64,000 nt of DNA from Cyanobium sp. NIES-981 (lineage in GTDB: Bacteria > Cyanobacteriota > Cyanobacteriia > PCC-6307 > Cyanobiaceae): assembly GCF_900088535.1 (NCBI RefSeq), contig NZ_LT578417.1, forward strand, positions 2,604,001 to 2,668,000, written 5' to 3'. The translations under genes and the position numbers were made by a program. The notes below the pieces were generated by a model that worked only from the letters and a program-made list of their open reading frames with translations, made no database searches and was not told where the DNA came from. Positions within the stretch are counted from its first letter, which is position 1; every line of letters begins with the position of its first letter. Below are positions 17,553 to 43,987 of this stretch, piece after piece.

Positions 17553-18431
17553 TCATAATTTCCAGTAGTCCAGGGGCTTGCCGATGTAGCGGAGGAAGAG
17601 CTCGGAGTCGGGTCGAATCTGGCGGCTGATCTGCCATTTCATCCACCAGGGCCAGGTTGGCTTCTCCACATAACGTCTCCCCTGCTGCCCCGCCTCATTG
17701 ACCATCGGCAACGTGGTGCCATCATTCAACAGGGGCTCAACAGGACCACCGACACCAAGGAACTGAAGAACCCGCTCCAGAATTGGTTTCGGGGAGCTGA
17801 GAAAGTCTTCAAACGTAAGGCAACATATCTGGTCGTCAGGGAAATAGGTGCGGAACTGGTTGATACGCTCGTAATAGAGAGAACAACCAATCACAAGACG
17901 CTTCAACCGTGATGTCTTCAATAGCCGCTCAAAGTCCGCGGTATCAGGATGTTTGCCCTTGATATGACGCCACTGAGAAACGATACGATCCAAGGGGTGT
18001 CGCACCATATAGATCAGCTTGACGCTTGGGAGATAGGTGTGGATCAACGCCGCCGTATGTTCGAAGCCAGGCAAGGGGCTGCTGTACATCGTGCTTCCCT
18101 CCCCTCTCAATCTGGATTCTGTACCTCCCGAGAAATGATCGGCATACCAGGCCCAGCCTCTGTCGTAATGGCGACCGAAGAACTTAGGCTCCTTAGGCTT
18201 GGACATGAAAATATCGGGATGGCGTCCCAGAACCCGCGTCAGGGTGGTTGTGGCTGATTTCGCCGCACCAACCACGATGAAATCAGGAAGAGACTCGGGA
18301 GCGATCCTGCTGACAACGGCACGATCAGCCCCTTCCAACCCCCTCTGAATAGCTGACAGCGTCTGCAACAGGCCAGGGTCGTCGTCATGCCTGACCTCAC
18401 AGGCTGGGTCCCGCCAGGACTGCACAGCCAT
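17553..18431 (-). CDS. sulfotransferase
   Basis: A 292-residue protein of the Sulfotransfer_1 group. The PAPS loop VVGAAKSATTTL lies at residues 53-64 and the 3'-phosphate motif VRHPLDRIVSQW at about 143-154, with the conserved Arg and Ser. KPKEPKFFG, common in heparan-type N-sulfotransferase relatives, follows the loop. The ATG at 18431 shares one base with the stop of the upstream NeuB fusion (TGATG), so the two are translationally coupled. Coupling suggests that the nonulosonic acid or the oligosaccharide carrying it may be the sulfate acceptor; this is inference. Confidence 0.92.
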   Translation of the reverse strand: MAVQSWRDPACEVRHDDDPGLLQTLSAIQRGLEGADRAVVSRIAPESLPDFIVVGAAKSATTTLTRVLGRHPDIFMSKPKEPKFFGRHYDRGWAWYADHFSGGTESRLRGEGSTMYSSPLPGFEHTAALIHTYLPSVKLIYMVRHPLDRIVSQWRHIKGKHPDTADFERLLKTSRLKRLVIGCSLYYERINQFRTYFPDDQICCLTFEDFLSSPKPILERVLQFLGVGGPVEPLLNDGTTLPMVNEAGQQGRRYVEKPTWPWWMKWQISRQIRPDSELFLRYIGKPLDYWKL

Positions 18432-20892: not shown

Positions 20893-22221
20893 CTACAGGC
20901 TGAACCTGGGTGTCACCAGAAGCAAGATACGCCGCCAGAGGCGGTTCCGGGCCCGCACGGCGGCGAGCCTGCGCTGGATGTTGCCGTGATCGGGGCGTTG
21001 CAGGGCGGCCATCTCCAGAAGCCTGGCCGCTTCCAGGTAGTCCTTGGTGGCAATGGCCTCCTCGGCGTTCAACCGCAGCTGGTTGCTGGAGAGATCGGCC
21101 GAGTTCACCACGTAGCCCCGCTGCTGCAGCCCCAGAGCCGGCTCCCTGGGGTCCGGGGCGGCGCACGCGCCCACGGCCCTGGCCTGGATGGCGGAGAAGA
21201 GGCTGGCCGGTGAGAAGCTCGGGTCATAGCCCACCCAGCGCAGCCAGTCGGGGTTGCCTTGGCGGTCCACCAGGGCATCGAGATCCTGGACGTCCTCAAG
21301 CCTCACCATCAGGTCGGACCCACCGAAGAAGTGGGTGCCCAGGTCGCTGCGGAGGCCGAAGTCCCCCACGAGGAGCGGGGTGCAGCCATGGTCAAGGGCA
21401 TCGAAGAACGCCGTGGAGGACAGGGTGGCGAACAGCCGGCTCTCCCTCAGCAACTGGGGAAGCGGGCTGTAGGAGAGCACGAGGTTGGGAGGGAAGGCCG
21501 GCGTGACACGGGCGAGGGTGTCGCTGATGTGCTCGCCGATGTCATGAAACGTTGCTTCATGGCGGGCCACCCGGGGCTTCATCACGATCCGCCAGTCCGG
21601 GAAGCGACGCGCCAGACCCACCAGCAGGGCGACCAGCCGCTCCCGTTCCTCCAGCCGGGCCGGCATCGCCACCTGTTCAGCGAAGACGAGCTGACGCAGC
21701 CTGGAGGATGGCGCTGGAGGGGCTGTCACCAGCGATCGGCGCAGTCCCGTGATCACCGTGGCCTGGCCGTGGTACGGGGTAGGCCCCACCATCCGCTCGA
21801 AGCGCACCTGGTCCCTCGGGCCGTTGAGGCAGATCAGGTCGTAGCCCAGCCGCCAGGTGACGGCCTCCTCGAAGCGCTCGAGCACCACCCCGTTGAAGCC
21901 GCAGAACAGCAGGGCATCGCGGTCCGGGTGCTGCTGGCGCGAGCGGATGTAGGCACTGCGGAACGCGGCGATCTTGCTGCCCGTCAGAAACACGCCGATG
22001 CCGCTGTAGCGGCCCAGATCGGCATCCTGGAGCAGAACCCCCATGCTGCGCTCCTGCACGGTGCCCAGGCGATGCATCCGCTGCTTCACCGCCTCGGGGG
22101 TTCCCTCGCGGGGTATGAGGTTGATGGTGAGGCGGATGCCGCAGGCAGCGTGGTCCCGCGCCAGGGCTTCGCAGTAGAGCAGCTGGCTGTCGGAATCAGC
22201 GATCAGCAGCACCGAGCTCAT
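20893..22221 (-). CDS. putative GT-B glycosyltransferase, paralogue 3 of a tandem trio
   Basis: A 442-residue protein. It shares ordered blocks with the two genes upstream of it on this strand: GYDLICLNGPRDQVRF, then LVFAEQVAMPARLEERERL, then WRIVMKPRVARHEATFHD, then FATLSSTAFFDALDHGCTPL. These resemble putative glycosyltransferases of the DUF6716 type; the KPR and SST elements recall the basic and Ser/Thr motifs of GT-B sialyltransferases. The C-terminal ~90 residues are an extra helical tail containing a tetratricopeptide-like helix pair. ATG 22221 overlaps the stop of the middle paralogue (ATGA). A nonulosonate transferase role is inferred from the NeuA/NeuB neighbours. Confidence 0.72.
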   Translation of the reverse strand: MSSVLLIADSDSQLLYCEALARDHAACGIRLTINLIPREGTPEAVKQRMHRLGTVQERSMGVLLQDADLGRYSGIGVFLTGSKIAAFRSAYIRSRQQHPDRDALLFCGFNGVVLERFEEAVTWRLGYDLICLNGPRDQVRFERMVGPTPYHGQATVITGLRRSLVTAPPAPSSRLRQLVFAEQVAMPARLEERERLVALLVGLARRFPDWRIVMKPRVARHEATFHDIGEHISDTLARVTPAFPPNLVLSYSPLPQLLRESRLFATLSSTAFFDALDHGCTPLLVGDFGLRSDLGTHFFGGSDLMVRLEDVQDLDALVDRQGNPDWLRWVGYDPSFSPASLFSAIQARAVGACAAPDPREPALGLQQRGYVVNSADLSSNQLRLNAEEAIATKDYLEAARLLEMAALQRPDHGNIQRRLAAVRARNRLWRRILLLVTPRFSL

Positions 22222-23264
22222 CGTTCCGCCCCAGCCTGAGGGCCCCGGTCGGCCCTGGCGGCCAGCCAACGGACCAGGGGCCCGGCATCCGGCCGGATGG
22301 TCCAGCCCATCTGACGCAACCACTCTGGGTTGGGGGCCGGCAGGTCACGAAGCTCCTCGAGGCTGTCGCAACCGGCCAGCCTGCCCATCAGTCCCGAACC
22401 GAACAGCAGGGGGCCGTCCATATCGGTGCGAATGCCGTAGTCACCCAGCAGCAGCAGTGGCAGGCCCAGGGCCAGGGTTTGCCAGAGCAGCGGGCTGCTG
22501 ATCGTGGCGCAGACCCCCGCGCTCCGGAGGCTCTGCCGCCAGATCTCCGGGGGAGCGGCCCGAAGCGAACGGTGACTGGCACGACCCTGGAGCAAGGCGC
22601 TCATGGCCGGTCCATCCTCCTCCGTCCCGGCAGCCGGGGCGGGGTGGCAAAACGGGTCAGCCTGGAGGATCAGCTCCCAGCCGGGGGAGTTCGCGCATAA
22701 CCGCTCCAGCACGGTGAGCAACCGTTCCCGCGCCCCTGGAGCCGGTGGGAGTCGTTGCTGTTCGAGAAACACGAGCCGTCTCGGCAGGCCATTGGGGTCC
22801 GGGGAGGCCTCCGGTGGGGAAGACCCGGATTGGCCCCAAGGTCCCAGCAGCACCGAGGCAGGCGCAGGGTGGCCACTGGTGCGCAACAGGTCGTCGAGTT
22901 CCTCCTGCTGGCGGGGCCCGTGCAAGCAGAGCAGATCCACCCCAAGCCTGGGCAGAAGGTCGGCCGTGAGTGCATCCCCCACCAGGGGGGTGGTGGGGCC
23001 ACTGAAGACAGCCACGGAGCGGCCGCCCCGCAGGGCACACGCCTGGCGCAGGCGCCGCAGGAAGCGTGGCAGGCACTCGGGAGCCGCGAACAGGCCCACG
23101 GCGTCCAGATGGGTGAGCAGGTCGCTGACGCTCAGGTCGTCGAGATCGAGCGGGGCTTCCTCGAACACCTCCACACCCCGGTGGCGCAGGGCAGCGGCGA
23201 GACGGCCGCAGGCAGAGCTGGCCAGAGCGGTGTCTGCCACCAGCAGCACCCTGATCGGCCTCAT
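22218..23264 (-). CDS. putative GT-B glycosyltransferase, middle and degenerate paralogue
   Basis: A 348-residue member of the tandem trio. Family blocks are present (GVDLLCLHGPRQQEEL, LVFLEQQRLPPAPGARERL, LLLLGDYGIRTDMDGPLLF). At the place where both relatives carry a basic KPR motif it reads LILQADP, and at their SSTA element it reads SSPLLWQ. It may therefore be catalytically weak or have an altered role, for instance as a partner subunit. ATG 23264 overlaps the previous stop (ATGA) and its own stop overlaps the next start, so all three are translationally coupled. Confidence 0.65.
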   Translation of the reverse strand: MRPIRVLLVADTALASSACGRLAAALRHRGVEVFEEAPLDLDDLSVSDLLTHLDAVGLFAAPECLPRFLRRLRQACALRGGRSVAVFSGPTTPLVGDALTADLLPRLGVDLLCLHGPRQQEELDDLLRTSGHPAPASVLLGPWGQSGSSPPEASPDPNGLPRRLVFLEQQRLPPAPGARERLLTVLERLCANSPGWELILQADPFCHPAPAAGTEEDGPAMSALLQGRASHRSLRAAPPEIWRQSLRSAGVCATISSPLLWQTLALGLPLLLLGDYGIRTDMDGPLLFGSGLMGRLAGCDSLEELRDLPAPNPEWLRQMGWTIRPDAGPLVRWLAARADRGPQAGAER

Positions 23265-24559
23265 CGGCCCCTGACGAAGTTCTCCACCCAGCGCAGCCCC
23301 AGCAGCAGATCCCGCAGGTAACGCACCACGTTCTTGCCGCGGTGGGTGGTCTTGAGACGGGAGCGGTTGCCGGCGCTGGTCAGCATCCGGCGACCTCCGT
23401 GCCGCAGGGCATAGCGCTGCCATGGCTCCGTTCCCCACCCCGGCGGTCCCGGAGTCAGGCCGGCCACCGCAGCGGAGGGCACCCGGCCCCGTTCGAGCCG
23501 TTCAACGAGCGCCTCGATGAAGCGCGCGCTGCCGTCCTGACAGCGGCCATGGCTGTCAAGCCAGGATTCGTCGTGGATCGGGGTGAAGGGATCGTCGATG
23601 ATCGCCTCGAAGCTGCGCACGGTGTTGGACCCCATGAAGTAGTGGTTCCCCAGGGTTTCATTCACTCCCAGATCCGCCACGATCCGGGTGCTGATGCCCA
23701 TGGCCATCGACTCCATGGCCGCCGTGGAGGACACGGTGATCGCACAGCCACACTGCCGCAGCAGGGCCAGGCTGGGCTTGTAGTTGATCTGCAGGTTGGG
23801 CGACTTCCTCATCAGCTTTTCAATCCGGCTGGCCATCTCCCCATGCCTGCGGTGGAGGGTGCGCTCCACCCCGGACGTCCGCGGCTTGAAGATCACGGTG
23901 TGGTCGGGCCAGCGCTTGGCAAGATCGTTGAGACGGTTGCAGATGTAGTGACGCTGGAGGGGGTTGGCCGGAACCGAGGGCTGCTCGAAGAAGACGATCG
24001 TCGGCTGGTCCCCACGGCCGCGTCGGCCCGGGTGAAGATTCCAGAGGATGGGCAGCCCGGTGACCACCGCGTTGTCGGAATTGAGCCCCAGAGCACGGCA
24101 GGCCTGCACGTAGAGATCCAGATCCACCGGAGAGTTGAGACAGAGCAGGTCCACCCCGGAGCGGTCCATCATCCCTTCGATCTGATGGCGGAACAGGATC
24201 CCCGGATAGGCGCTGATGGTGAGGGGCCAGCCCCCGGGCTGGACGTCGGCACGCAACAGCAGCTCCAGTTCACGGGTGCGCTGTCCGTCCAGCCCGAGCA
24301 CCAGGGCATCGAGATCGGCCAGGCTGGAACGGATCTGACGCAGAGCCTGCCACTCCTGGCGGACGATGGTGACCCTCGCATCGATGCGCTGGATTTCCAG
24401 CAACTGGCGGCGGGAGAGCCGCCGGCCCTGCACCTCGAGCAGGTAGAGGGTGGTGCGGGCCTGCTCCCGCCGGCATTGCGACAAGATCGTCATCGCGGTC
24501 TTCCCGAAGGAATCGAAGCTGGCGATGGCCGCGATGCGTCGCCCCTCCAGCCTCGTCAT
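23261..24559 (-). CDS. putative GT-B glycosyltransferase, paralogue 1 of a tandem trio
   Basis: A 432-residue protein with the fullest set of trio motifs: SGVDLLCLNSPVDLDLY, IVFFEQPSVPANPLQRHY, HTVIFKPRTSGVERTLHRRH and ITVSSTAAMESMAMGISTR. This layout is like putative DUF6716-type glycosyltransferases and like polysialyl/sialyltransferase-like GT-B enzymes. Immediately upstream is a NeuA-like cytidylyltransferase whose stop overlaps this ATG, so a CMP-nonulosonate is the plausible donor; that is inference from context. The C-terminus is basic (RSRLKTTHRGKNVVRYL), possibly for membrane association. No signal peptide is visible. Confidence 0.72.
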   Translation of the reverse strand: MTRLEGRRIAAIASFDSFGKTAMTILSQCRREQARTTLYLLEVQGRRLSRRQLLEIQRIDARVTIVRQEWQALRQIRSSLADLDALVLGLDGQRTRELELLLRADVQPGGWPLTISAYPGILFRHQIEGMMDRSGVDLLCLNSPVDLDLYVQACRALGLNSDNAVVTGLPILWNLHPGRRGRGDQPTIVFFEQPSVPANPLQRHYICNRLNDLAKRWPDHTVIFKPRTSGVERTLHRRHGEMASRIEKLMRKSPNLQINYKPSLALLRQCGCAITVSSTAAMESMAMGISTRIVADLGVNETLGNHYFMGSNTVRSFEAIIDDPFTPIHDESWLDSHGRCQDGSARFIEALVERLERGRVPSAAVAGLTPGPPGWGTEPWQRYALRHGGRRMLTSAGNRSRLKTTHRGKNVVRYLRDLLLGLRWVENFVRGR

Positions 24560-25314
24560 CGCGCCGATCCCCCAGGCTGGGCCGGATCCAGCAGTCCGGC
24601 CAGCCGCTGGCAGAGCGCCAGATCGTCCGGAGTGTCGATCTCCGGTGCCGGTCCCTCGACCGGCACCGGCAGGAGTGGAGGCACGAACCGGGTTTCCGCT
24701 GCCAGGAAGGGACCGGTGCGCAGGGCGTAGATCGCGCCGGTTTCGAGGTAACAGGGAGCGAGATCCTGACGCCGCTGCCGGGGGCGGCTGGCGTCGTGGT
24801 TGACCCCGAAGCCCCAGCCTTGGGCATCAAGACCCCAGAGAAAACCGTGCCAGGCCGTGACGGCGAAGGCCATGTTGGCCTTCGAGGCCTGCAGTGCCGC
24901 GAGCACGCGGTCGATCTGCCCGCTGGTGGTGAAGGGGGAGGTGCACTGGAGGAAGACGAACAGGGGCGGCAGCGGCCCCGCCTGGCCCAGGTGGTGCAGG
25001 GCATGGAGCAGGGCGGACTCCGAGGTGGCCGCATCGCCCGCCAGCGACGGAGGCCGGTGCACCACCTGAGCCCCGGCCGAGGAGGCGGCCTCCGCAATGG
25101 CCGTGTCCTCCGTGCTCACCACCGCCCGGTCGATGGTGGAGGCGGCCTTCACCGCCTGGATCGTGCGGCAGATCAGGGGAACGTCCCCCACAGGCTGCAG
25201 ATTCTTGCCCGGGATGCCCTTGGATCCTCCGCGCGCCGGGATGAGAGCCAGCGGGGGAAGGGCCGGATCGATGCGAATGCCAGGCTGCTCACGAGGTTGG
25301 ATCTCCGCTTCCAT
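24556..25314 (-). CDS. neuA: CMP-nonulosonate (NeuA-like) cytidylyltransferase
   Basis: A 252-residue nucleotidyltransferase that would activate a nonulosonic acid with CTP. LALIPARGGSKGIPGKNL at about residues 20-37 is the CTP-binding P-loop of this family. VVSTEDTAIAEAA and LFVFLQCTSPFTT are the other expected blocks. A late EIDTPDDLALCQRL corresponds to the C-terminal acidic motif. ATG 25314 (MEAEIQ) is chosen because a GGGG ribosome-site-like run precedes it and it avoids overlapping kpsC; ATG 25362 is possible. The stop overlaps the start of the first trio glycosyltransferase. A KdsB-like role on Kdo is less likely from the motif set. Confidence 0.85.
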   Translation of the reverse strand: MEAEIQPREQPGIRIDPALPPLALIPARGGSKGIPGKNLQPVGDVPLICRTIQAVKAASTIDRAVVSTEDTAIAEAASSAGAQVVHRPPSLAGDAATSESALLHALHHLGQAGPLPPLFVFLQCTSPFTTSGQIDRVLAALQASKANMAFAVTAWHGFLWGLDAQGWGFGVNHDASRPRQRRQDLAPCYLETGAIYALRTGPFLAAETRFVPPLLPVPVEGPAPEIDTPDDLALCQRLAGLLDPAQPGGSAR

Positions 25315-25348
25315 CCCCAGGACCCCGGGGCCCGCACGCTTCGAGAAC

Positions 25349-27508
25349 CTAGCAGCGCTCATCGGGAAGCCAGGCCCGTAGACGGGCCCGCGCCTGGGCG
25401 AGGCGGAAGCACAGCGGAGGCGGGAGTTCGAGGCCCAGCACCTCGAGCCAGCGCGGGGGCATCGCCGGGGAACGGCGGGGCAGGGCACCGTCCCGCAGCA
25501 GCCCCAGTTCCTCCACGGCCCGCTCCGGCGTGGTGTAGGCGCCGGAAACCAGGCTCAGGTAGACGGGGTAATGGATCAGCGCGGCGTAGACCAGATCGTC
25601 GAGCTGCAGCTGACGCCCCCGTCGAGAACACTGCAGCTGATCGACGCTGAGGCCCCAGCCCGCATAGAACGGCAGGCCCCAGGTGGTCACCGGGATCCCC
25701 CGCAGAAGGGCCTCGAATCCGGTGATGGACGTGCGCACATGCACACCGTCCACCTCCTCGAGCAAGACCTCCATCGGCGCCTCAGCCAGCACCAGGTCGC
25801 AGTGGTGGCGGGCATCGCGCTCCCCGGGGCCGGGGCGCTGACGCCCGGAGACCACGTCCGGGTGGGGCTTGTAGATCAGGAAGGCGTCGGGATGGGCAGC
25901 GCGAACGGCGCACAGCAGCGCAAGGTTGCTGTGCACGCTGGCATCGGCCGGCACGCCATAGCGGATCGACAGATCGACCTCCACCTGGCCGGGCACCAGG
26001 AGCACGGAGCGTCCCGCCAGATGGGCAGGACGCTGCCACCGCGGCGCTCGCAGGTTGTACTTGGTGAGGCGTGAGGCCACGATCCGCTGCCGCAGGGCCG
26101 CCGCACGCCGTCGTTCTGCCTCCGTGAACGGGTGTGTGGCCAGATAGGTCTCCAGATCGCTGGGAGCCGAGGCGTCGTAGTAGATGCCGCTGTGGTCCAC
26201 CACCCAGGAGATCGGTGGTACCCAGCGCAGCCACCAGCCCTGGCCCACGGAGCGGAGGAAACCGTCCTCGGCGTGGATCAGGGGCACCCCAGCCTGGCGC
26301 AGTCCTCTTCCCACGCGGTTGCCCCACACCAGGGCGCGGCCATGTTGGGCCCGCCCCGGCGGGGCGTGAAAGCCCCGGAAGCGAAGCCGCCGAGGGGTCA
26401 ACCCCCGCTGGAAACGGCGCACGGCATTGCGCTTCCAGCCGGCGATGCCGAACACCTCCAGGTTGCGCGGCACGGCCGCCCGCTGACGGCGCTGGAAACC
26501 CACCTGGGCGATCAACCGTTCGGGGGTGCTGATCTGCCCGGTTTCGGGGTCCAGGTAGCGGCCGTACCCCACAAGGCAACTGTGCACCAGGGTGTCCAGA
26601 TCGGTGTCGCCCCGGCGGGCTCCATGCTCCGGAGCAGCGAGCCGGTCGCAGGTGAGTCCCCACCCTGCGTAGAACGGCATTCCGAAGCAGTGCACGGGCT
26701 TGCCCCAGATCAGGGCCTCGAACCCCATCTGGGAGGTCACCACGTACACCGCAGTGGCCGCTTCGAGCAGGCCGACAGGATGGCCGCCATCGATGCAGGC
26801 ATGGACGCGGGGGTGCCGAAACAGTTCCGGGGAGAAATGCCCCTGACGCCCCCCGCCCACCACGGCGGGGTGGGTCTTGATCACGATCGTGTGGTCCGGA
26901 AAGTCGTCCAGCGCCGCGGCCACCATGGCCTGGAAGCTGGCGGCGGTCGCGGATCCGTGCACGATCGCGGCATCATCGGCCACCTGGTCCACCACCAGCA
27001 CGAAATCCTTCTCCGGTGGTGGCGACTCGGCGGCGGCGTTCACCTTGCTCACCCTGTGGTGGCGCCAGGCGGAGACCAGGTCCCGGGCGCGGAGGCGCTG
27101 CGCTGAATCGATCCCCGCGGCGATCAGGGCCTCCAGCCGACTCGGACGGGAGCTGTCGTAGTGAATGCCGCGATCATCCAGGACAATTCCCAGCGGAGGT
27201 GCACCGGGCCCCGGATCCACCGAACGGAGGAAGGCATCCTCCGCGCGCCAGAGGGGGAGGTGGTGGTGGCGGGCGAACCGTTCCCCCCAGCGTCCGCTGG
27301 GTCGACGCCCCCAGACGAGCAGGGCGTCAACGGCCTGGTGGGAACAAGCCCTGCGGCCCAGCACCAGACGGGCAGGGCTCAGCAGCGACTCCAGGGTGCT
27401 GTGGGCGAGAACGAGTGGATCGGGGATGCCGAGCACCAGGTCTGCCGCTGACCCCGAAAGCAGAGAAGGCAGGGTGGGGGGAGGTGCCTGCGGCGGGCTG
27501 TTCCCCAT
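25349..27508 (-). CDS. kpsC: capsule linker beta-Kdo transferase KpsC
   Basis: KpsC extends the poly-Kdo linker on the phosphatidylglycerol anchor of group 2 capsules. The 719-residue product has the expected two-module structure. Module 1 (about 1-340) contains WRAEDAFLRSVDPG, GIVLDDRGIHYDSSRPS and VIKTHPAVVGGG. Module 2 (about 350-719) repeats the pattern with HAEDGFLRSVGQG, WVVDHSGIYYDASAPS and LIYKPHPDVVSGR. E. coli KpsC is about 675 residues. It diverges from the kpsS fusion at 27652 across 143 bp. The neuA-like gene follows 35 bases after its stop. Confidence 0.94.
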   Translation of the reverse strand: MGNSPPQAPPPTLPSLLSGSAADLVLGIPDPLVLAHSTLESLLSPARLVLGRRACSHQAVDALLVWGRRPSGRWGERFARHHHLPLWRAEDAFLRSVDPGPGAPPLGIVLDDRGIHYDSSRPSRLEALIAAGIDSAQRLRARDLVSAWRHHRVSKVNAAAESPPPEKDFVLVVDQVADDAAIVHGSATAASFQAMVAAALDDFPDHTIVIKTHPAVVGGGRQGHFSPELFRHPRVHACIDGGHPVGLLEAATAVYVVTSQMGFEALIWGKPVHCFGMPFYAGWGLTCDRLAAPEHGARRGDTDLDTLVHSCLVGYGRYLDPETGQISTPERLIAQVGFQRRQRAAVPRNLEVFGIAGWKRNAVRRFQRGLTPRRLRFRGFHAPPGRAQHGRALVWGNRVGRGLRQAGVPLIHAEDGFLRSVGQGWWLRWVPPISWVVDHSGIYYDASAPSDLETYLATHPFTEAERRRAAALRQRIVASRLTKYNLRAPRWQRPAHLAGRSVLLVPGQVEVDLSIRYGVPADASVHSNLALLCAVRAAHPDAFLIYKPHPDVVSGRQRPGPGERDARHHCDLVLAEAPMEVLLEEVDGVHVRTSITGFEALLRGIPVTTWGLPFYAGWGLSVDQLQCSRRGRQLQLDDLVYAALIHYPVYLSLVSGAYTTPERAVEELGLLRDGALPRRSPAMPPRWLEVLGLELPPPLCFRLAQARARLRAWLPDERC

Positions 27509-27651
27509 ACCTGGCCCTGTCCCCGCATGCTGGCCGAATCCTAGGCCTCCGCACCTTCCGCGCTGCCGGAGGGCGCATCACCACTGGGATTGCCCCCGGC
27601 CCGTGGGAGGATGGCGCCAGGGCCGCAGGTGTGGCATTGGCCAGCGTTCAG

Positions 27652-29652
27652 GTGCAGATCGAAGGTCCCGTCCTGCTGCTGATGGGTCCCATCGGTCTGT
27701 TCTTCTCAAGGCTCTGGCACTACCTGGATGATTCGGGGGTGCCGGCCTACAAGATTTCCTACCCCCTGCACGAATTCGGCTTTCCACATCGCGCCAGAAT
27801 TCCATTCCGCGGCTCCATGCAGGAATGGCCGGAATTCCTTCGTGATGTGATTCAGAAGCAGGGGATTCGCCATCTGTTTATGTATGGCGACTTCATCGAC
27901 CCCCATCGCCTCGCCATCGAAGTCGCCAAAGAGATGGGGATCGACGCCTATGTATTTGAGCTGGGCTATGTCCGCCCAAACTACGTCACTCTCGAGCGCG
28001 ATCGCGTCAACTGTCGATCAAATCTCAACCAGCCGGTGGAGTTCTACGAGGCACTGCCACCGGTTTCCAGCCTGCCCCAGGCACGGCTGGATCCCGGTTG
28101 GCGATGGCGCAAAGTATGGAAGGCTCCCACCTTCATCCAGCATGCCTTCACCCGCTACAGAATCATCGAAGGCGAGCATAAACTTCAGCCATCGCCAAGA
28201 TTCCTGTGGTGCCAGGTGCGGGGATCAGTCCGCTATTGGATGTACCGACTGGAGGAGCGAAAACTCAAGCGCCTCCTGGTGGAGAACCTCTCATTTTTCC
28301 TGGCCATCCTTCAGGTTTCAAGCGACTCCCAGATCACGATGGGGTCAGGATTCCGTGGGATGCACGACTTCATCGAAACCGTGGTGGTTTCGTTCGCCGC
28401 CAATGCCCATCCATCGGATCATCTCGCCTTCAAACACCACCCTCGCGACCGGGGCTACAACAACTACAAAGCCCTGATTCGCCTTCTGGCTGAGCGCGAA
28501 GGTGTCACCGGTAGAGTCCACTATTTCCATGACGCGCCCCTCAGCGCCTTCATTCGCACGTGCCGTGGCGTCGTCACGGTGAACAGCACAGTTGGGCTTC
28601 AGGCCCTCTTTCATGCCGCACCCACCAAGGTGCTGGGTGAAACCTTCTACAACCTGCGGGGCCTCACGGATCAACAGCCCCTGGATGGTTTCTGGGCTTC
28701 GCCCCAGCCCAGCAGCAGGCCGCTGTTCTACCGGTTCTACCACCATCTGGTCACCACCACGCAGATCAACGGGAACTTCGATGGCGAGTTCCCCTTCCGG
28801 AACACCTTTCCTGTTTCACCCACCGCCCGTTCGAGTTCATTCCCACTCGCGAGCGCCGCTCCTCGGTTCGAGAAGTGGGTGATTCCATTCAGAGTGAGCT
28901 ACCGCCTGCTCTGTTTTGTCGCGATGTACATCGCCTATGGCCTGGAGCTGCTGGCGCTCAGTCTGGGAATGCGCCGCGCGGCCAAGCGCCTGCTCACCAG
29001 CGTTTCACGCTTCGGGCTCCGGGCTCTCGGCATTGATGTGATTGTTGATGACAGTCTGGTCCAGGCGGGTGATGCTCAGAGACGGGTACACATCTGGAAC
29101 CACAACAGCCCTTTCGATGTTTTTGCCATTCAGGCTTATCTGAGCATGCCGGCTGTCACGACTTCCGGACTCCACCTCAATCGTCTGCTGCCGTTTTTCA
29201 ACCGGTCAGCGAGCAATGCAGGACACGTGCTGCTCGACCACCGGCAACCTGATCAGCGACGCAGCAGCCTCTGGAAAGCCTCCCAGGTTCTGGAACAGCA
29301 CGGTCAGCTGATGATTGCCCCGAATGGATCCCTGCGCACCTCGATACTGCAGCGAGCCTCCGCCAGCGCCTTCCTGCTGGCCAGGCGCCATCAGGCCATC
29401 GTGGTGCCCTGGTGGTTTGAATACCGGGGGCTGGAAGGAATCGACGCCGCCACGCTCTACAAGCCGCTCCGGCTGCTGGGCCAGCGGTTGTGCGCCCCGA
29501 GGGCTGTGCTGCACTGTCGTCAGGGGCGTGCCGAGGATTTACGCCTTGGCCCCGGCGAAAGCAACCGGGATGGCTTCTCGCGGCGGGTGATCGCTTACTA
29601 CGCCCAGGATGCGGCCGGTTGGGCGGACTCCCACCAGAGCGTCGCTTCCTGA
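27652..29652 (+). CDS. kpsS: KpsS capsule Kdo transferase fused to a PlsC-type acyltransferase
   Basis: About 666 residues. Residues 1-~390 are KpsS-like: LLLMGPIGLFFSRLWHYLDD at the start, KHHPRDRGYNNY at about 261-272 and TVNSTVGLQALFH. KpsS adds the first Kdo to a lyso-phosphatidylglycerol. After a linker with hydrophobic helices (about 420-455) comes a PlsC/LPLAT-like domain: NHNSPFD at 483-489 (the NHx4D catalytic motif), GHVLLDHRQPDQRR, and APNGSLRTS at 556-564 in the place of the usual EGTRS motif, with Asn for Glu. Normal KpsS is about 390 residues and lacks this domain. No ATG suits the start; GTG 27652 is chosen, and GTG 27631 is possible. Confidence 0.88.
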   Translation: MQIEGPVLLLMGPIGLFFSRLWHYLDDSGVPAYKISYPLHEFGFPHRARIPFRGSMQEWPEFLRDVIQKQGIRHLFMYGDFIDPHRLAIEVAKEMGIDAYVFELGYVRPNYVTLERDRVNCRSNLNQPVEFYEALPPVSSLPQARLDPGWRWRKVWKAPTFIQHAFTRYRIIEGEHKLQPSPRFLWCQVRGSVRYWMYRLEERKLKRLLVENLSFFLAILQVSSDSQITMGSGFRGMHDFIETVVVSFAANAHPSDHLAFKHHPRDRGYNNYKALIRLLAEREGVTGRVHYFHDAPLSAFIRTCRGVVTVNSTVGLQALFHAAPTKVLGETFYNLRGLTDQQPLDGFWASPQPSSRPLFYRFYHHLVTTTQINGNFDGEFPFRNTFPVSPTARSSSFPLASAAPRFEKWVIPFRVSYRLLCFVAMYIAYGLELLALSLGMRRAAKRLLTSVSRFGLRALGIDVIVDDSLVQAGDAQRRVHIWNHNSPFDVFAIQAYLSMPAVTTSGLHLNRLLPFFNRSASNAGHVLLDHRQPDQRRSSLWKASQVLEQHGQLMIAPNGSLRTSILQRASASAFLLARRHQAIVVPWWFEYRGLEGIDAATLYKPLRLLGQRLCAPRAVLHCRQGRAEDLRLGPGESNRDGFSRRVIAYYAQDAAGWADSHQSVAS

Positions 29653-29747: not shown

Positions 29748-30998
29748 TCAGCTGCCCTGAAGCACCAGCGAGATGTTGTGCCCACCGAAGCCGAAGGCAT
29801 TCTTCAGCACCGTGCGCCGCTCCTGAGGCACCGTCAGGGGCACAGGCTGATCAGTCACGAGATGGAGCTGGATCGCCGGATCGATGGGCTCGGCGTTGAC
29901 GCTCACCGGAACGAGGCCGGCACGCAGGGAACGGATCGCCATGATCACCTCGACCGCGCCCGCGCCGCCCAGCATGTGGCCGAACTGGCCCTTCGGTGCC
30001 GTGACCGGAATGTCAGCATGGGTTGCTCCAAGCAGGTGCTCGATGGCGCTGGCTTCCGCCAGGTCGCCCATCGTGGTGCCGGTGGCATGGGCCTGTATGA
30101 AGCTGAGGTCGCCAAGGCTCAGACCGCTGCGATCCAGGGCCTGTCGCATGGCCGCACTGGCCTGGGTACCTCGGGGATCGGGGGTCACCATGTGGTGCGC
30201 ATCCGCCGTGCTGCCCGCATCGAGCAGGAAGGCCTCACAGGAGGCGCCACGACTGCGTGCATCCCCCTCCCGCTCGAGCACCACCATGCCGGCGCCCTCG
30301 GCGATCACGAAACCATCACGGTCACGGCCGTAGGGACTGGACGCCAGGTGGGGGGTGTCGTTCCGGGTGGACAGCGCCCGCATGGCACTGAAGCCGGCCA
30401 GACCCAACGGGTTCACCGGGGCCTCCGATCCTCCGGCGATCACGACGTCCGCCCGATCATCCCGCAGCAGCAGCAGTCCCCAGAGCAAGGCTTCGGCGGA
30501 GGAGGCGCAGGCGGAGACCGGCGTGTGGGCGCCGGCATGCGCTCCCAGGGCGATGCTGATCTGGCCGGCGGCCGCGTTGGGGATCAGCATGGGCACGGTC
30601 ACGGGATTGACCCGGGATGCTCCGCGCTCCAGCAGGGTGCGGTACTGCTGTCCCATGGTCTCCAGGCCTCCGATGCCGCATCCCACCACCACGGCGACCC
30701 GGCGTTCCTCGGCGGGAATGGCCTGCGGGAGAGCCGACTGCTGCCAGGCTTCCAGGGCCGCGAGCAGGGCCAGCTGGGAACAGCGGTCCAGCCGGCGTCT
30801 CTGCAGAGGCTCCAGAGCCACGGTGGGATCGCCGGGGATGACACCCGCCAGGCGTGAGGGGAGGGACACGGCCCACTCCTGCTCGAGCCGACGGATGCCC
30901 GACTGGCCGGCCCGGTAGCGGTCCCAGCAGGTCTCGACTCCGCATCCGAGGGGGGACACCACTCCCATGCCCGTGATGGCGATCCTCTCCTTCGGCAC
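29748..30998 (-). CDS. fabF: beta-ketoacyl-ACP synthase II (FabF-type), accessory copy
   Basis: A 416-residue condensing enzyme that elongates acyl-ACP with malonyl-ACP. The Cys-His-His triad is intact: C164 in HTPVSACASSAEA, H304 in IQAHATGTTMGD and H341 in GQFGHMLGGAG. Length and ends (MPKERIAITGMGVVSPLG; NAFGFGGHNISLVL) match FabF. In cyanobacteria the housekeeping fabF usually neighbours acpP and tkt. Here it follows a separate ACP gene and an N-acyltransferase within a capsule locus, so I read it as an accessory enzyme tuned to a special acyl chain. Gaps to the ACP are 83 bases, on the same strand. Confidence 0.92.
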   Translation of the reverse strand: MPKERIAITGMGVVSPLGCGVETCWDRYRAGQSGIRRLEQEWAVSLPSRLAGVIPGDPTVALEPLQRRRLDRCSQLALLAALEAWQQSALPQAIPAEERRVAVVVGCGIGGLETMGQQYRTLLERGASRVNPVTVPMLIPNAAAGQISIALGAHAGAHTPVSACASSAEALLWGLLLLRDDRADVVIAGGSEAPVNPLGLAGFSAMRALSTRNDTPHLASSPYGRDRDGFVIAEGAGMVVLEREGDARSRGASCEAFLLDAGSTADAHHMVTPDPRGTQASAAMRQALDRSGLSLGDLSFIQAHATGTTMGDLAEASAIEHLLGATHADIPVTAPKGQFGHMLGGAGAVEVIMAIRSLRAGLVPVSVNAEPIDPAIQLHLVTDQPVPLTVPQERRTVLKNAFGFGGHNISLVLQGS

Positions 30999-31081: not shown

Positions 31082-31468
31082 TCAGCTCGGATTCTCCCTC
31101 TGTTCGATGTAGGTCACGATATCGCGAACCGTCTTGAAGGTGAGCAAATCCTTTTCTTCTATTTTGATGCCCATTGTCTCATCAGCTTCAATCAGGATTT
31201 CATAAAAACCGAGCGAATCAACCCCCACATCCTCGATGATCAAGGCGTCCAAGCTGATCGTGTCGGGGTCGGCTCCGGCAATCCTGGCAAGGATGTCTTT
31301 CAGTCCACGCAGAATCTCGGCCTGGGTGAGCGGTCGGCGAAGCGCGGGATCACCAGACACGCCAGTGTTGGTCATGCCGTCATCGGCCAAACCGTCCTTG
31401 GTCATGCCATCGCCGGTCAAGTCGTCATTGGATTCTGATGGAGTAGCTGGGTCTACCAAGGGACTCAA
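31082..31468 (-). CDS. acyl carrier protein with a repetitive N-terminal extension
   Basis: The C-terminal ~85 residues are an ACP: helix 1 ILRGLKDILARIAG, then DVGVDSLGFYEILIEADE with the phosphopantetheine Ser at residue 85, then KDLLTFKTVRDIVTYIE. The N-terminal extension holds a pentapeptide repeat (about residues 15-39). The longest reading begins at TTG 31468, which abuts the stop of the upstream N-acyltransferase. In-frame ATG codons at 31405 and 31375 would give proteins of 107 and 97 residues; the last has normal ACP length. It probably serves the neighbouring FabF and N-acyltransferase as a dedicated carrier. Confidence 0.88.
   Translation of the reverse strand: MSPLVDPATPSESNDDLTGDGMTKDGLADDGMTNTGVSGDPALRRPLTQAEILRGLKDILARIAGADPDTISLDALIIEDVGVDSLGFYEILIEADETMGIKIEEKDLLTFKTVRDIVTYIEQRENPS
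31352..31426 (-). repeat. five 15-bp coding repeats in the ACP N-terminus
   Basis: The encoded pentapeptides read DDLTG, DGMTK, DGLAD, DGMTN and TGVSG. Units two and four are nearly identical in DNA and each contains an ATG. The unit number could vary between strains by slippage. All of it lies upstream of the ACP fold. Confidence 0.6.
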
Positions 31469-32488
31469 TTATTGCGAGCTGGATGGGACTGAGAGGGTTT
31501 CCCCTGACACTTTATCATCGAGTTCTGAGCAGACAGGCTGGCTGAGCCACGATCCCATGGATTCAGATTGCCCCCGAAACCAGGGGAATTGCCTGTACAC
31601 CGGAGCATGCGGAAAGCCCACAAAGTGCTGAAGGCGACGCGGAGGAACATGGGTAAGGTCGGCCGTCATCAGGATTTCCGTGATCTGGTTGAAGTCCTTG
31701 GCGATGGAAATATCATGGGTCTTGGCGCCCATGAGGTTGATATATTGACGAAGCAGTACGGGCAGACGGAAGGCTGGCAGCTGGCGTTGCGCCTCAGCCT
31801 CAAGGTGCTGAATGGATTGGCAACCTCCACCGGCATGCAGCTCATCGCCGCGGAAGATTCTGGGGTAGCGCGCCGGCGGCAGATCCGCCACGGGCCCCCT
31901 GAAGGGAGGCAACATCAGGGAGCGAAGAAAGAAATCATTGAGAGCGCCTGGATATTGGAAATGATTGTAGGAAACCAAGCCATAGATAGCCGTGTAGCCG
32001 GAGGCAACTGCAGCCTGCAAGCCACCTCGAAAAAGTGTCATCAACGAGGCCGGTTGACGCTGAAAGGCTGGTGAGATGGCAACACGGCCTATTTCCAGAT
32101 GGCTGCCACGAGCCATCAAGCACTTTTTAATTCCCGGATAGACATGCTCCAGATAGGAGGTTGAGGAGCTGTGGGTGAGTCCTGCGTGGCTGGATTGGTG
32201 AGATGAGCTCTGGTCCGGGACGAACTGCAACCTGGCAGTTCCTGCCAGGGCGAACGTCGCATCATCCACGAGCACAAAGTGATCGTAATAAGGGTCGCGG
32301 CCATCCAGATCTTTATTGTTTCCCGAACCCGAAAGTTTCTGCCTGTATGTGAGCTCGCGAAGCAAGCCGACTTCGTCAGCGAAGTTTTCAAACGTATTGC
32401 CCGGTATCAAAAAGAGGGTCAGGCCATAATTTGAAAAGAAGAAGAAGGGCTTGATATCATCAATCAGAACTCGGCTCAGGGGAATCAT
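31469..32488 (-). CDS. OlsB-like N-acyltransferase (GNAT fold, acyl-ACP user)
   Basis: A 339-residue protein. The central domain resembles Acetyltransf_5/OlsB enzymes and the acyltransferases of exosortase loci, which use acyl-ACP to acylate an amine. HFVLVDDATFALAGTARLQF is the GNAT beta-hairpin region. LEIGRVAISPAFQRQP carries the 'ExxRxAVxP' block, followed by YTAIYGLVSYNHF. OlsB itself acylates ornithine to lyso-ornithine lipid. The ACP gene starts directly after its stop, so the pair is one transcript. The substrate could be ornithine, another amino acid, or an amino sugar of the capsule. Composition is more AT-rich than in fabF. Confidence 0.72.
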   Translation of the reverse strand: MIPLSRVLIDDIKPFFFFSNYGLTLFLIPGNTFENFADEVGLLRELTYRQKLSGSGNNKDLDGRDPYYDHFVLVDDATFALAGTARLQFVPDQSSSHQSSHAGLTHSSSTSYLEHVYPGIKKCLMARGSHLEIGRVAISPAFQRQPASLMTLFRGGLQAAVASGYTAIYGLVSYNHFQYPGALNDFFLRSLMLPPFRGPVADLPPARYPRIFRGDELHAGGGCQSIQHLEAEAQRQLPAFRLPVLLRQYINLMGAKTHDISIAKDFNQITEILMTADLTHVPPRRLQHFVGFPHAPVYRQFPWFRGQSESMGSWLSQPVCSELDDKVSGETLSVPSSSQ

Positions 32489-32885
32489 GGGCAGTCGGGG
32501 CTGAGCTCAGGGGTCAGGGGCGTCCCCCAGGAGTCGCGCTGCTGGACGGGCGGGCGCAAGAGACGGTTACGGCCCGTGCCCCGAGCAAGGGCCAGAGGGG
32601 GTAACGGCCCAGCGGGGGGAACACCAGCGGGGAGATCAGTGTGTGACAACCCCCCGCCCCGATGCACGTGGGCCGATTGTGACATCCACCTCCCGGCCTG
32701 GGACCCAAGACCGGACAGTTTGTGCGTGCGCCTCCACGGCCGCCATGGCCTGGAGAGCAGCGCTGCCGGTTGCTGGGCTGTCACCTGGAAGAGCCTCGCC
32801 ACCGCCCCTACAGTGAGCCCCCCTGGTCGGGCTGGGCCATCGCGGTCACGGGTCCGGCCCCTTGTGTGACCGCGGGTGTCCGTTG
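32489..32885. other. 397-bp divergent spacer, no gene recognised
   Basis: This very GC-rich spacer separates the N-acyltransferase (minus) and the Wza/KpsD-like gene (plus). Short open frames exist on both strands but translate to Arg/Pro/Gly-rich sequence. The fragment ttacggcccgtgcc recurs loosely near ggtaacggcccagc. Promoters for both directions are expected here; I cannot place them. Confidence 0.5.
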
Positions 32886-34124
32886 ATGATCCAGTTGTTC
32901 CCCCTCACCGCGCCGGCCCACTGGCTGGCCCCGCTCCGGGCCGGCCTCTGCGGCGTCCTGGTTGCGCAGACGGCCATGGCGCTGGCACCGCTTCCCGCCC
33001 GCTCCCAGCCCCAGTCCTTCCCCATCCCCGGGGATTCCACCACGTCCCCTGGTCCTCTGCCCGAGGACCGGCCGAGGACCAGGCCCGAGACACCGCCCGC
33101 GTCCCTGGCCCGTCGCTTCCCCGACAATCCCCAGAACGACGGCTTTCGCTATCGCCTGGCCCCCGGTGACCGGGTGCGGGTGTCCGTCTTCAAGGTTGAA
33201 GGCTATGAAGCGGAAACCGAGGTGCTCAGCGATGGCACGGTCAACCTGCCAAGGATTGGATCGGTGAACGTCTGGGGCCTCACCCTCGACGAAGCGAACA
33301 AGCGGATCACCCGGCTTTACAGCAGGATTCTCCGCCGCCCCCTGGTCTACATCGACCTGCTCACCCCACGGCCCGTACGGGTCACCATGGTGGGACAGGT
33401 GGAGCGGCCAGGCTTCTACACCCTCACCAGGGACCCCTCGACCTCCACGCTCAGGCCCTCAGGCCCCAGTCCGGAGGGCGTGGCGGTGACCACCTCAGGG
33501 TGGCCCACCATGGTGGATGCGATCCAGCGGGCTGGAGGCATCACGGCACTCGGGGACCTGTCCAACCTTGTGCTGGTGCGTCGGGGCCACACCCCCTCAG
33601 ACCCGCCTCGGGAATACCACTTCGACTACCTGAAGGTGCTCATGGAGAACGGCACTGCCGTCAATCCACTGATCTATGACGGCGATACCATTCGGGTCTC
33701 CAAGGTCAAGGGTCCCCGCTCCAGCGACGCCCTGATCGCTTCTTCCACATCCAACTTCGCTCCCGACTCCATTGCCGTCAATGTGGTGGGAGAGGTGGTG
33801 TCACCGGGCCTCAAGCAGGTGAAGTCGAACACTCCGCTCACCAACGCCGTGCTCGCGGCTGGGGGGCTGGATCCTCAGCGGGCGAACACCACCAATCTGC
33901 GGCTGCTTCGTCTGGAAAGTGATGGCACGATCGTTTCCAAGGAAGTGGCGTACGATCCCGCCGCGCCTCTGGGATCCGAGCAAAATCCACCCCTACGCAA
34001 CGGCGACGTGATCGTGGTGGCCCGGAACGCCTGGACGCGGGCGAACGACCTGCTGGTGCAGGCTGTCACCCCACTCGGCCCCCTGCTCAATGCAGCCTCT
34101 CTTTACAACATTCTCGCCCGATAG
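32886..34124 (+). CDS. outer-membrane polysaccharide export protein (Wza/KpsD-like)
   Basis: A 412-residue protein with an N-terminal signal-like hydrophobic segment (about residues 12-40, ending near ALAPLPARSQ). It has a Poly_export domain, FRYRLAPGDRVRVSVFKVEG with DGTVNLPRIGSVNVWGLTL. Two or three SLBB-like segments follow (VTMVGQVERPGFYTL, VNVVGEVVSPGLKQV and LRNGDVIVVARNAWT). It would form the outer-membrane channel that carries the capsule out of the cell, as KpsD does with KpsE. ATG 32886 is preferred because the upstream GTG at 32862 adds residues ahead of the signal. It stands alone, divergent from the N-acyltransferase. Confidence 0.92.
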   Translation: MIQLFPLTAPAHWLAPLRAGLCGVLVAQTAMALAPLPARSQPQSFPIPGDSTTSPGPLPEDRPRTRPETPPASLARRFPDNPQNDGFRYRLAPGDRVRVSVFKVEGYEAETEVLSDGTVNLPRIGSVNVWGLTLDEANKRITRLYSRILRRPLVYIDLLTPRPVRVTMVGQVERPGFYTLTRDPSTSTLRPSGPSPEGVAVTTSGWPTMVDAIQRAGGITALGDLSNLVLVRRGHTPSDPPREYHFDYLKVLMENGTAVNPLIYDGDTIRVSKVKGPRSSDALIASSTSNFAPDSIAVNVVGEVVSPGLKQVKSNTPLTNAVLAAGGLDPQRANTTNLRLLRLESDGTIVSKEVAYDPAAPLGSEQNPPLRNGDVIVVARNAWTRANDLLVQAVTPLGPLLNAASLYNILAR

Positions 34125-41722: not shown

Positions 41723-42514
41723 TCAGTCCTCATCAGCCAAGAGAAGAGACTCATTGTTACCATATATAAAGAATCCAAACCCGAGCAGAAAGATGGTGGA
41801 TCCAATTAAGTAAGGAGCGGAAACATCTGGGATGGGGTACTCATGGTTAAAAGCATGGCGAAGAAGTTCAATTCCATGCGCAAGGGGATTCCACAGGATC
41901 CAACCGCGGAAGATATTGGGTATTGTACTTATCGAAAAGAAAATACAGGAGGTAAAAAGGAGAAGGCGTCGAATGGCGGTTCTGGCTATGCTCGCTACAA
42001 ACGGGATCCTATGGCCGATGATGAGTGTAACCAGTCCAACACCGAACGCTAAAAGCGAGAGCATCACGAAGTAAAACACCGCTAGGCCAGGCTCCTCAAC
42101 AATCGGTTTCCATTCATAAAAGAATGAGCCAAGAATAAAAGCAAGGATTAGAAGAGAGAATACTTGAGTATCAAGAATTGCCGAGCCCAAGAGATAGTCA
42201 ATAGGCCTGATTCGATTGTAATAGGTCAGTTTCGTGCTTTTCTTGACGCCATTCAGCGCCTTCAGAGCCACCTCAGAAAACATGAAGAAGCCAACAAAGC
42301 CGATGGCAGTCCACAAGACAGGATTAATATAGTCAGGCTGCAGTCCGCCTTGACTGCCAAACAGGCGAAAAGACATGAAGATAGCAATAAAGAAAAGGGG
42401 TTCAACAAACACACCAACTACACCCATGGGGCCCATGGCAGCGCGCATCTGCAATTCCCGCCTTGCAATAGCATTGACGATACGCAGCTGAAGAAAGAGC
42501 TTTTGAATGATCAT
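41723..42514 (-). CDS. kpsM: capsule ABC transporter permease KpsM
   Basis: A 263-residue ABC-2-type permease that carries lipid-linked capsule polymer across the inner membrane. Six membrane spans are visible, for example VFVEPLFFIAIFMSF, WTAIGFVGFFMFSEVAL, FSLLILAFILGSFF, and SIFFSISTIPN-like segments near the C-terminus. RRELQMRAAMGPMG matches the amphipathic N-terminal element of the family. It lies 17 bases after kpsT. Composition is AT-richer than the flanking core genes. The predicted C-terminal tail NNESLLLADED is acidic. Confidence 0.94.
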   Translation of the reverse strand: MIIQKLFLQLRIVNAIARRELQMRAAMGPMGVVGVFVEPLFFIAIFMSFRLFGSQGGLQPDYINPVLWTAIGFVGFFMFSEVALKALNGVKKSTKLTYYNRIRPIDYLLGSAILDTQVFSLLILAFILGSFFYEWKPIVEEPGLAVFYFVMLSLLAFGVGLVTLIIGHRIPFVASIARTAIRRLLLFTSCIFFSISTIPNIFRGWILWNPLAHGIELLRHAFNHEYPIPDVSAPYLIGSTIFLLGFGFFIYGNNESLLLADED

Positions 42515-42531: not shown

Positions 42532-43422
42532 TTAAAGAAGATTGGTTTTCACAGAATCAGGTGCCTTCGTTTCCCAGGGGTCCTGCGCCAATGGTGCATC
42601 ACCCAACAAATCATTCATTGTGCTTTCAAGGGAACTCTCAACATCGGAATGTTGTCGCAATGATCGTGATAGAGAGCGATCCTTGCGGGCAGCGCGAACT
42701 TCCTTGGCAAGAACAGCACTTTCATCCAAGGAGCCCTGGAAAATAACCTTCCCGTCCTTGAGCACAATGCCTTCAGAGCAATAGTCTCGGGCAAAGGACT
42801 GGGAGCCTGAAGCCTCAACAATGACAGTTCTTCCTTCCAAGCGTCTATCCACAAGCCGTTTGACCTGACGCATGAATGGTACTTCTGATCTGCAGTTCCA
42901 TCCATCCCATCGCATTACAGGATAGATTTCGAATTGGAACGCCAAGGCGAGAGCCAACTTAAGGCGGTCCTTCATGCCTACGGAATACTTTTCAAGAGGC
43001 TCATCAAAAAGCTCACCAAGATCACACAGCTGTCGAATAAAGTCAAGTTCTCTGGTGTCGTCCTCGTAGACTCCATACAGCGAGACAAGAAACTCTGCAT
43101 TGGCCCGAGCAGAGAGCGCTGGCATCAACGGCATGCGAGAGCCAATCACCCACGAGGAGCAGCCTGCGACGAGCAGGTTCCCACTGCTGATGGGCTCGTG
43201 GCCAGCGAGACAATTCAAAAAGGCACGGCTGCTTTCCTGGGATCCTGAAAAGACGGCAAGTCGTTTGCCTGGCGGAATGGTGTAGGTGATGTCATCAAGA
43301 ACTACGTTGGGAGCAGAACCACCAGTTGAGCTTCGCTTGGTCACATTCCTGAAGACAACCGAGCCAGGGGCCAACTCAGAGGATGTCACTGGCACCGTTG
43401 GGGGCTTCATCGCGCTCATCAT
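42532..43422 (-). CDS. kpsT: KpsT-like ABC ATPase with degenerate nucleotide-binding motifs
   Basis: A 296-residue protein placed like KpsT and sharing its fold order. The catalytic motifs are altered. Walker A reads GSQESSRA at residues 60-67, where the Lys is Arg and the Gly before it Ser. The signature loop is weak (EKYSVGMKDRLK, about 144-155). Walker B is PVMRWDGW at about 168-175, with the catalytic Glu replaced by Gly. The H-loop region (EASGSQS) has no His. Active KpsT would have GxxGxGKS/T, DE and His. I infer loss or change of ATPase activity. The start overlaps the DUF1997 gene by 47 bases; an internal ATG at 43410 is possible. Confidence 0.85.
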   Translation of the reverse strand: MMSAMKPPTVPVTSSELAPGSVVFRNVTKRSSTGGSAPNVVLDDITYTIPPGKRLAVFSGSQESSRAFLNCLAGHEPISSGNLLVAGCSSWVIGSRMPLMPALSARANAEFLVSLYGVYEDDTRELDFIRQLCDLGELFDEPLEKYSVGMKDRLKLALALAFQFEIYPVMRWDGWNCRSEVPFMRQVKRLVDRRLEGRTVIVEASGSQSFARDYCSEGIVLKDGKVIFQGSLDESAVLAKEVRAARKDRSLSRSLRQHSDVESSLESTMNDLLGDAPLAQDPWETKAPDSVKTNLL

Positions 43423-43987
43423 CAGAGACTCGCTCCAACCATCCCAAGGCTCCCAATCGTAACCGGCTCTGGCAGCGTGCTTCAAGTCTTGCCAGGCAAA
43501 CCAGCAGCACCTGGCGGGCAAGTGCCGTCAACAATGGCCTGGGAAGCCACAGCATCCGATTCGCTGCACAGATCTCGAGACTCGCCGTGGCGCAGGCCAT
43601 GAGCTGGAGCTGCACGGGTCGGATCGAAGCCCGAAGGCCGAACTGGATGGACTGCTGCGCAAGTGCTGGGGGGAGACCTGGCAGGTGGCAGGAGTCAAGA
43701 TGGATGGTCAGGGCATCTCCCTGCCACTCCGCTGAGAAAAAGAACTCAGGCTGGACGAGCCAGCGGGCTATGGCGACAGGTCGAGAGGAATAACGAAAGA
43801 CACCGGAAGGGAGGCGCTGGAGACGAGACCTGCTGAGTAGGGCCGAAAGAACGCGACCTGGATGGCTCACATAGCGTTGGAGTGCAGCGCAATGATGGGT
43901 AGACGGTGTCGGATCTGCCAGCGATGGAGGGTTCAACGTCACGGTGCAAGCGCGTGACTCACTCAACTTGACCGTCTCTAGGGTCAT
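43376..43987 (-). CDS. DUF1997 family protein
   Basis: A 203-residue protein resembling DUF1997, a family of cyanobacteria and plastids with unknown function. The segments RYVSHPGRVLSALLSRSRLQ, GVFRYSSRPVAIARWLVQPE and a DALTIHLDSC-like strand form the expected beta-rich body. It has no signal peptide or span. ATG 43987 overlaps the helicase stop (ATGA). The kpsT start lies 47 bases inside its 3' end. This ties a lineage-core gene pair to the capsule transporter on one strand. Confidence 0.8.
   Translation of the reverse strand: MTLETVKLSESRACTVTLNPPSLADPTPSTHHCAALQRYVSHPGRVLSALLSRSRLQRLPSGVFRYSSRPVAIARWLVQPEFFFSAEWQGDALTIHLDSCHLPGLPPALAQQSIQFGLRASIRPVQLQLMACATASLEICAANRMLWLPRPLLTALARQVLLVCLARLEARCQSRLRLGALGWLERVSDDERDEAPNGASDIL

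Follow-up and report, generated by a model that had tools for sequence, protein, structure and literature searches.

Gene content of the locus

The window, a stretch of 64,000 nucleotides from the genome of Cyanobium sp. NIES-981, carries at positions 27652-29652 of the forward strand one stop-free frame of 666 residues, in which a KpsS domain is joined at its C-terminal side to a PlsC/LPLAT domain. The GTG at 27652, taken as the start in the initial annotation, varies in relatives (ATT in G390, GTA in two others), so that the true start is probably the GTG at 27631, seven codons upstream. The 257 open codons upstream of the fusion were also considered as coding; their length is not conserved, they overlap KpsC, and beyond the first few they were judged non-coding. 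The features of the gene and its neighbours are listed in Table 1.

Table 1. Features of the KpsS-LPLAT gene and of the genes around it (residues numbered from position 27652).
Feature	Position	Strand	Remarks
KpsS-LPLAT fusion gene	27631..29652	+	Start probably GTG 27631, versus GTG 27652 in the initial annotation
KpsS Kdo-transferase domain (residues 1-389)	27652..28818	+	E103, Q221xxxD225 and H263-P264 invariant; motif roles from PMC10148158
Fast-evolving linker (residues 390-411)	28819..28884	+	End point of canonical KpsS
LPLAT/PlsC-like O-acyltransferase domain (residues 412-666)	28885..29649	+	Predicted from PF01553, model fold and profile comparison
Catalytic motif I, N483-H484-x4-D489	29098..29118	+	
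Motif III, PNGS (residues 557-560)	29320..29331	+	Replaces PEGT(R)
KpsC, dual Kdo transferase	25349..27508	-	Both QxxxD motifs present
FabF-type ketosynthase	29748..30998	-	C-H-K-H active site intact in 21/21
Acyl carrier protein (ACP)	31082..31468	-	DSL motif intact in 21/21
PF13444 GNAT acyltransferase	31469..32488	-	Like the OlsB half of OlsF; constant neighbour
Wza/KpsD-type outer-membrane export protein	32862..34124	+	
CMP-sugar synthetase (CTP_transf_3)	24556..25488	-	Distinct from the KdsB of the genome
KpsM-like ABC permease	41723..42514	-	
KpsT-like ABC ATPase	42532..43521	-	Weak match; homologues adjoin KpsC in genus g8 loci

The constant core, found at every locus with enough contig, consists of KpsC, the KpsS-LPLAT fusion and the convergent PF13444 GNAT. 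Among 386 cyanobacteria spread over the phylum, the GNAT is present in exactly the 11 genomes that bear the fusion, which are related genomes and not 11 independent events. All the GNATs tested were recognized by PF13444, and their best family match was OlsF, over its OlsB-like half, with 24-55 bits against a cut-off of 620. In Cyanobium, in marine Synechococcus and in some further genera, the interval from the fusion to the GNAT holds FabF and ACP. Neither gene is present close to the fusion in genus g8 or the reduced genomes, and the FabF-ACP pair was therefore discarded as an obligatory partner. The Wza/KpsD gene comes next, after the GNAT, and in genus g8 the KpsM/KpsT-like genes are located on the other side of KpsC.

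KpsC is inverted with respect to KpsS only in the subclade of the window (G000, G386 and G390); in the other loci the two genes share a strand, with KpsC upstream. Further genes, all on the reverse strand, are found beyond KpsC. A sulfotransferase gene (17553-18434), which suggests a sulfated polymer, adjoins the nonulosonate genes. These include a four-domain CBS-NeuB-SAF-AP_endonuc_2 protein (18431-20758), a nonulosonate synthase carrying an additional TIM barrel that is kept in the Cyanobium and marine Synechococcus loci. Three successive DUF6716 putative glycosyltransferases (20893-24559) stand beside the CMP-sugar synthetase and are kept across loci.

Distribution and conservation of the fusion

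The full-length fusion was found in 12 of the 13 genomes of the window's genus, the 13th being 78% complete, and in 11 of the 386 cyanobacteria, where a search with the KpsS model returned exactly those 11 genomes and no further KpsS. Within the Cyanobiaceae, 61 of 400 genomes were KpsS-positive; the two domains are fused in 55 of these and encoded by separate genes in two, and the remaining four end at contig ends. A scan with LPLAT-domain patterns over one genome each of 84,980 species, which is blind to independent fusions of KpsS with other acyltransferase families, gave 17 loci, all of them fused (17/17), whose hosts are Cyanobium, Vulcanococcus, Synechococcus or a cyanobacterial MAG. As to independent fusions outside the cyanobacteria, KpsS matches in 101 plasmid records extend over at most 59% of the query, short of 80% coverage in every case, so that none of these records shows a fusion.

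The initial annotation had left room for a stop or a frameshift separating the two parts. Since the gene is full-length in nearly all genomes of the genus and in those 11 of the phylum sample, a frameshift or missed stop is excluded, and sequencing error is likewise ruled out by a two-domain frame that is kept in dozens of genomes. The fusion is real and not an artefact. Moreover, both domains have dN/dS values far under 1 (0.03-0.05 for KpsS and 0.07-0.11 for LPLAT), and the linker has 0.22-0.30; all these values are rough because dS exceeds 1.

The KpsS half and the supply of Kdo

The N-terminal part is a KpsS, as first annotated. PF05159 matches residues 77-376 of the fusion protein (6.6e-55, 187 bits against a Pfam cut-off of 20) and the KpsS model NF050054 matches residues 7-376 (5.5e-82). 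The equivalog cut-off of NF050054 is 600 bits and the fusion reaches only 276, but the E. coli control genome is also below it, so this cut-off is non-discriminating here. This half is 36% identical to an enterobacterial KpsS, whose end falls at the start of the linker. The catalytic residues described for beta-Kdo transferases are a Glu, a QxxxD nucleophile and an HP motif (PMC10148158); E103, Q221-D225 and H263-P264 occupy these positions, are invariant in 21 fusions and align with those of an enterobacterial KpsS.

Regarding the donor, the genome encodes KdsA (391 bits, cut-off 314) and KdsB (188 bits, cut-off 155), a supply of CMP-Kdo. KdsA is present in 11 of 11 KpsS-positive genomes of the phylum sample and in every KpsS-positive genome tested. 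In genus g2, with genomes of 1.5-1.7 Mb and loci of about 28% GC, KdsA lies about 3-4 kb from KpsS in the two KpsS-positive genomes, which are the reduced ones, and it is absent from the KpsS-negative genomes of that genus. On these genomic grounds, co-occurrence and proximity tie KpsS to Kdo. A transferase of another ulosonic acid was considered, as NeuB and a NeuA-like synthetase are encoded at the locus, and was rejected because KdsA and KdsB are present and KdsA tracks KpsS.

The acyltransferase half

The C-terminal part had been described as a PlsC-type acyltransferase from its motifs, and both the profile search and the structure prediction agree with it. PF01553 matches residues 476-589 (5.2e-9, 36.4 bits against a Pfam cut-off of 23), and profile comparison of this half with cyanobacterial PlsC gave 5e-9 across 202 columns. 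The full-length AlphaFold model of the fusion is poor, and the fold evidence comes from a model of the LPLAT half (pLDDT 82.6, pTM 0.81), whose best match is Thermotoga maritima PlsC (5kym, E 5.7e-6, probability 1.0); PatA comes second (E 2.9e-3) and the remainder is noise. A sequence search of the PDB with this half gave no match. A hydrophobic segment at about residues 409-440 precedes the HX4D motif (NHNSPFD), and GHVLLDHR and PNGS come after it. By cut-off, predicted fold and HX4D, this half is assigned to the PF01553 acyltransferases.

Its substrate side seems to be different from that of PlsC. Motif III of the fused family is P[N/S]GSL and not PEGTR, with ALNGSL as the single exception. 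In T. maritima PlsC, Lys105 and Arg159 bind the phosphate of the substrate (PMC6688108, PMC8319176), and the motif alignment showed no equivalents of either residue in the fused family. SalA, an O-acyltransferase of amino-lipids, also lacks the phosphate-binding Arg (PMC8319176). An amino-lipid-like or a sugar acceptor would fit these motifs better than lyso-phosphatidylglycerol (lyso-PG). With regard to narrower families, TIGR00530 (PlsC) gives 30 bits against a cut-off of 103, and NF052553 (OlsA) matches just 2 of 21 family members with a best E of 0.0016, which falls short of an OlsA assignment. No TPR domain, as in the TPR-LPLAT architecture of VexE, was matched in the fusion, where the N-terminal half is KpsS. 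Furthermore, the genome encodes a canonical-looking PlsC separately (L098), so the fused LPLAT is not the housekeeping enzyme.

Split, tandem and decayed copies

Both genomes with separate genes are reduced ones: in G723 KpsS and LPLAT are adjacent, overlapping frames, and in G668 they are on different contigs. Six marine Synechococcus genomes have a second LPLAT, a stand-alone gene that comes directly after the fusion. In four of these (G557, G661, G577 and G550) HX4D and PNGSL are gone from the fused domain, whose frame is still open, and the stand-alone copy is intact. The decayed domains have long branches. In the KpsS tree these four genomes interleave with intact ones on short branches, whereas their decayed domains group together; hence, the downstream block may have been exchanged, and the four genomes are not necessarily four events.

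The rule that the fused domain decays only when a tandem copy is present is broken by G420, which has a decayed tail and in whose genome the search found no other LPLAT of the fused family. The truncated G449 is probably similar, with a degenerate tail and no second LPLAT of the family found by the search. These cases indicate that the acyltransferase activity can be lost. Two loci of genus g166 (L142 and L143) show a degenerate KpsS tail with no acyltransferase match, and L142 retains the GNAT, FabF and ACP.

Proposed function

The domains, the intact catalytic residues, their conservation and the co-location of the genes can be read from the sequences, and with fair probability they describe a bifunctional enzyme, a Kdo transferase joined to an O-acyltransferase that is probably ACP-dependent, which together with the GNAT builds the lipid terminus of the capsule. 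As for the acyl donor, the acceptor, the order of the steps and the structure of the capsule, we infer the following scheme. At the membrane, the N-terminal half would take the first beta-Kdo from CMP-Kdo and place it on a lipid acceptor. The C-terminal half would be held there by its own N-terminal helices and would use His484 and Asp489 to move an acyl chain, whose donor is probably acyl-ACP, onto a hydroxyl of the lipid that KpsS primes, either before or after Kdo has been added to it. The adjoining GNAT would add an amide-linked chain, and in loci that have FabF and ACP these could provide a dedicated chain. KpsC would afterwards lengthen the Kdo linker, and the polymer would be exported as in capsules of the ABC-transporter type.

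A bifunctional enzyme that primes the capsule linker and modifies its lipid, taken to be lyso-PG, had already been proposed in the initial annotation. The bifunctional part is supported, with two intact-looking active sites. That both halves act together is backed by the conservation, by the two reduced genomes that encode them as separate genes (side by side in one of the two), by the decay beside intact stand-alone copies (n=4) and by the adjoining acyl-handling genes. The part that did not hold as worded is lyso-PG as the acyl acceptor: Lys105 and Arg159 are absent, and a constant OlsB/OlsF-like N-acyltransferase neighbour points to an amide-bearing lipid and not to plain PG.

In a more specific and tentative form, the Kdo-linked capsule may be anchored on a dedicated, perhaps phosphorus-free, N-acyl/O-acyl lipid instead of lyso-PG. 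The OlsB-like GNAT would make the amide, the fused LPLAT would add the ester, as OlsA or SalA do, and KpsS would put Kdo on the same molecule, so that one protein would join anchor synthesis and capsule initiation.

Acylation of lyso-PG is possible, if on the unlikely side. The LPLAT half would add an acyl chain to lyso-PG or Kdo-lyso-PG, giving the diacyl form, or make lyso-PG for KpsS by transacylation. In its favour, (lyso-)PG is the substrate of E. coli KpsS, and both mono- and diacyl forms have been reported (PMC7694667, PMC10148158); PlsC is also the nearest fold of this half; against it, the two phosphate-binding residues are missing, motif III is P[N/S]GSL and the constant GNAT is left unexplained. 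It is rather unlikely that the acceptor is a sugar, Kdo or another terminal residue, in the way PatA acts on mannose and VexE on UDP-GlcNAc. PatA is the second structural match and VexE is a precedent within a capsule locus (PMC9597891), but the PatA match is much weaker than that of PlsC and the TPR domain of VexE is missing.

An LPLAT domain without enzyme activity, serving KpsS as a membrane anchor or scaffold, would agree with the five fused copies that lack HX4D and still retain 220-250 open codons. This reading is improbable, since H484-x4-D489 is intact in 50 of the 55 fused copies, counting one with an ambiguous base at the Asp, and in 8 of 8 stand-alone copies, while the decayed copies are long-branched and 4 of 5 have an active-looking neighbour copy. 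Gene fusions may be neutral, but a chance fusion of neighbours that share no pathway is very improbable given that the fusion keeps its motifs intact in seven genera, that one more genus has the two parts as separate adjacent genes, and that the acyl neighbours are conserved.

Returning to the bifunctional enzyme, the origin of the acyl chains at the lipid terminus of ABC-transporter capsules is little known, and here the acyl step is genetically wired to the first Kdo transfer. No description of a KpsS-PlsC fusion, or of a KpsS-acyltransferase fusion in cyanobacteria, was found in open-licence full texts, in line with the initial annotation, which knew of none; an older or subscription report may exist. 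The fusion represents a new form of the ABC-transporter capsule pathway. A 2015 survey of the phylum took the confined distribution of KpsS and KpsC as a sign that cyanobacteria have no poly-Kdo linker or rely on other mechanisms (PMC4594306), and cyanobacterial LPS has been reported to be free of Kdo (PMC4390846, a paper whose subject does not include the capsule). The present data argue, in contrast, for a Kdo-initiated capsule in some abundant picocyanobacteria. Because KpsS is fused to an acyltransferase and a second acyltransferase gene adjoins it, the locus suggests that picocyanobacteria themselves make a fatty anchor dedicated to the capsule. If this anchor were free of phosphorus, it would suit phosphate-poor water.

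Comparison with known systems

The group 2 capsule systems of E. coli and Neisseria share with the fusion the Glu, QxxxD and HP residues of KpsS; the two-module KpsC adjoining, KdsA and KdsB in the genome, and the ABC transporter and Wza/KpsD in the region are further likenesses. Nevertheless, canonical KpsS has about 390-415 residues with no acyltransferase and takes (lyso-)PG as its acceptor, and that system has no known acyltransferase in the capsule locus. The 1-acylglycerol-3-phosphate acyltransferase PlsC resembles the C-terminal half in fold, N-terminal helices and NHx4D, whereas the fused family has neither PEGTR nor an equivalent of Lys105.

Amino-lipid pathways pair a GNAT N-acyltransferase with a PF01553 O-acyltransferase, as in OlsB/OlsA (PMC11631085). 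The locus has such a pair, with a GNAT nearest to the OlsB half of OlsF and an LPLAT that, like SalA, lacks the phosphate-binding Arg of PlsC (PMC8319176). However, no KpsS partner is known for OlsB/OlsA, OlsF or SalA, and the profile scores found here are far below the family cut-offs.

The nearest functional precedent is VexE of the Salmonella Typhi Vi antigen, an LPLAT-family, hydroxyacyl-ACP-dependent enzyme that makes an acylated capsule terminus (PMC9597891) and is likewise encoded in an ABC-transporter capsule locus. Unlike the fusion, VexE is joined to TPRs and not to KpsS, the Vi system has no KpsS or KpsC, and the motif His is kept with a Tyr in place of the Asp. It is this precedent, together with the pairing of GNAT and PF01553 enzymes in amino-lipid pathways, that leads us to favour a dedicated lipid terminus.
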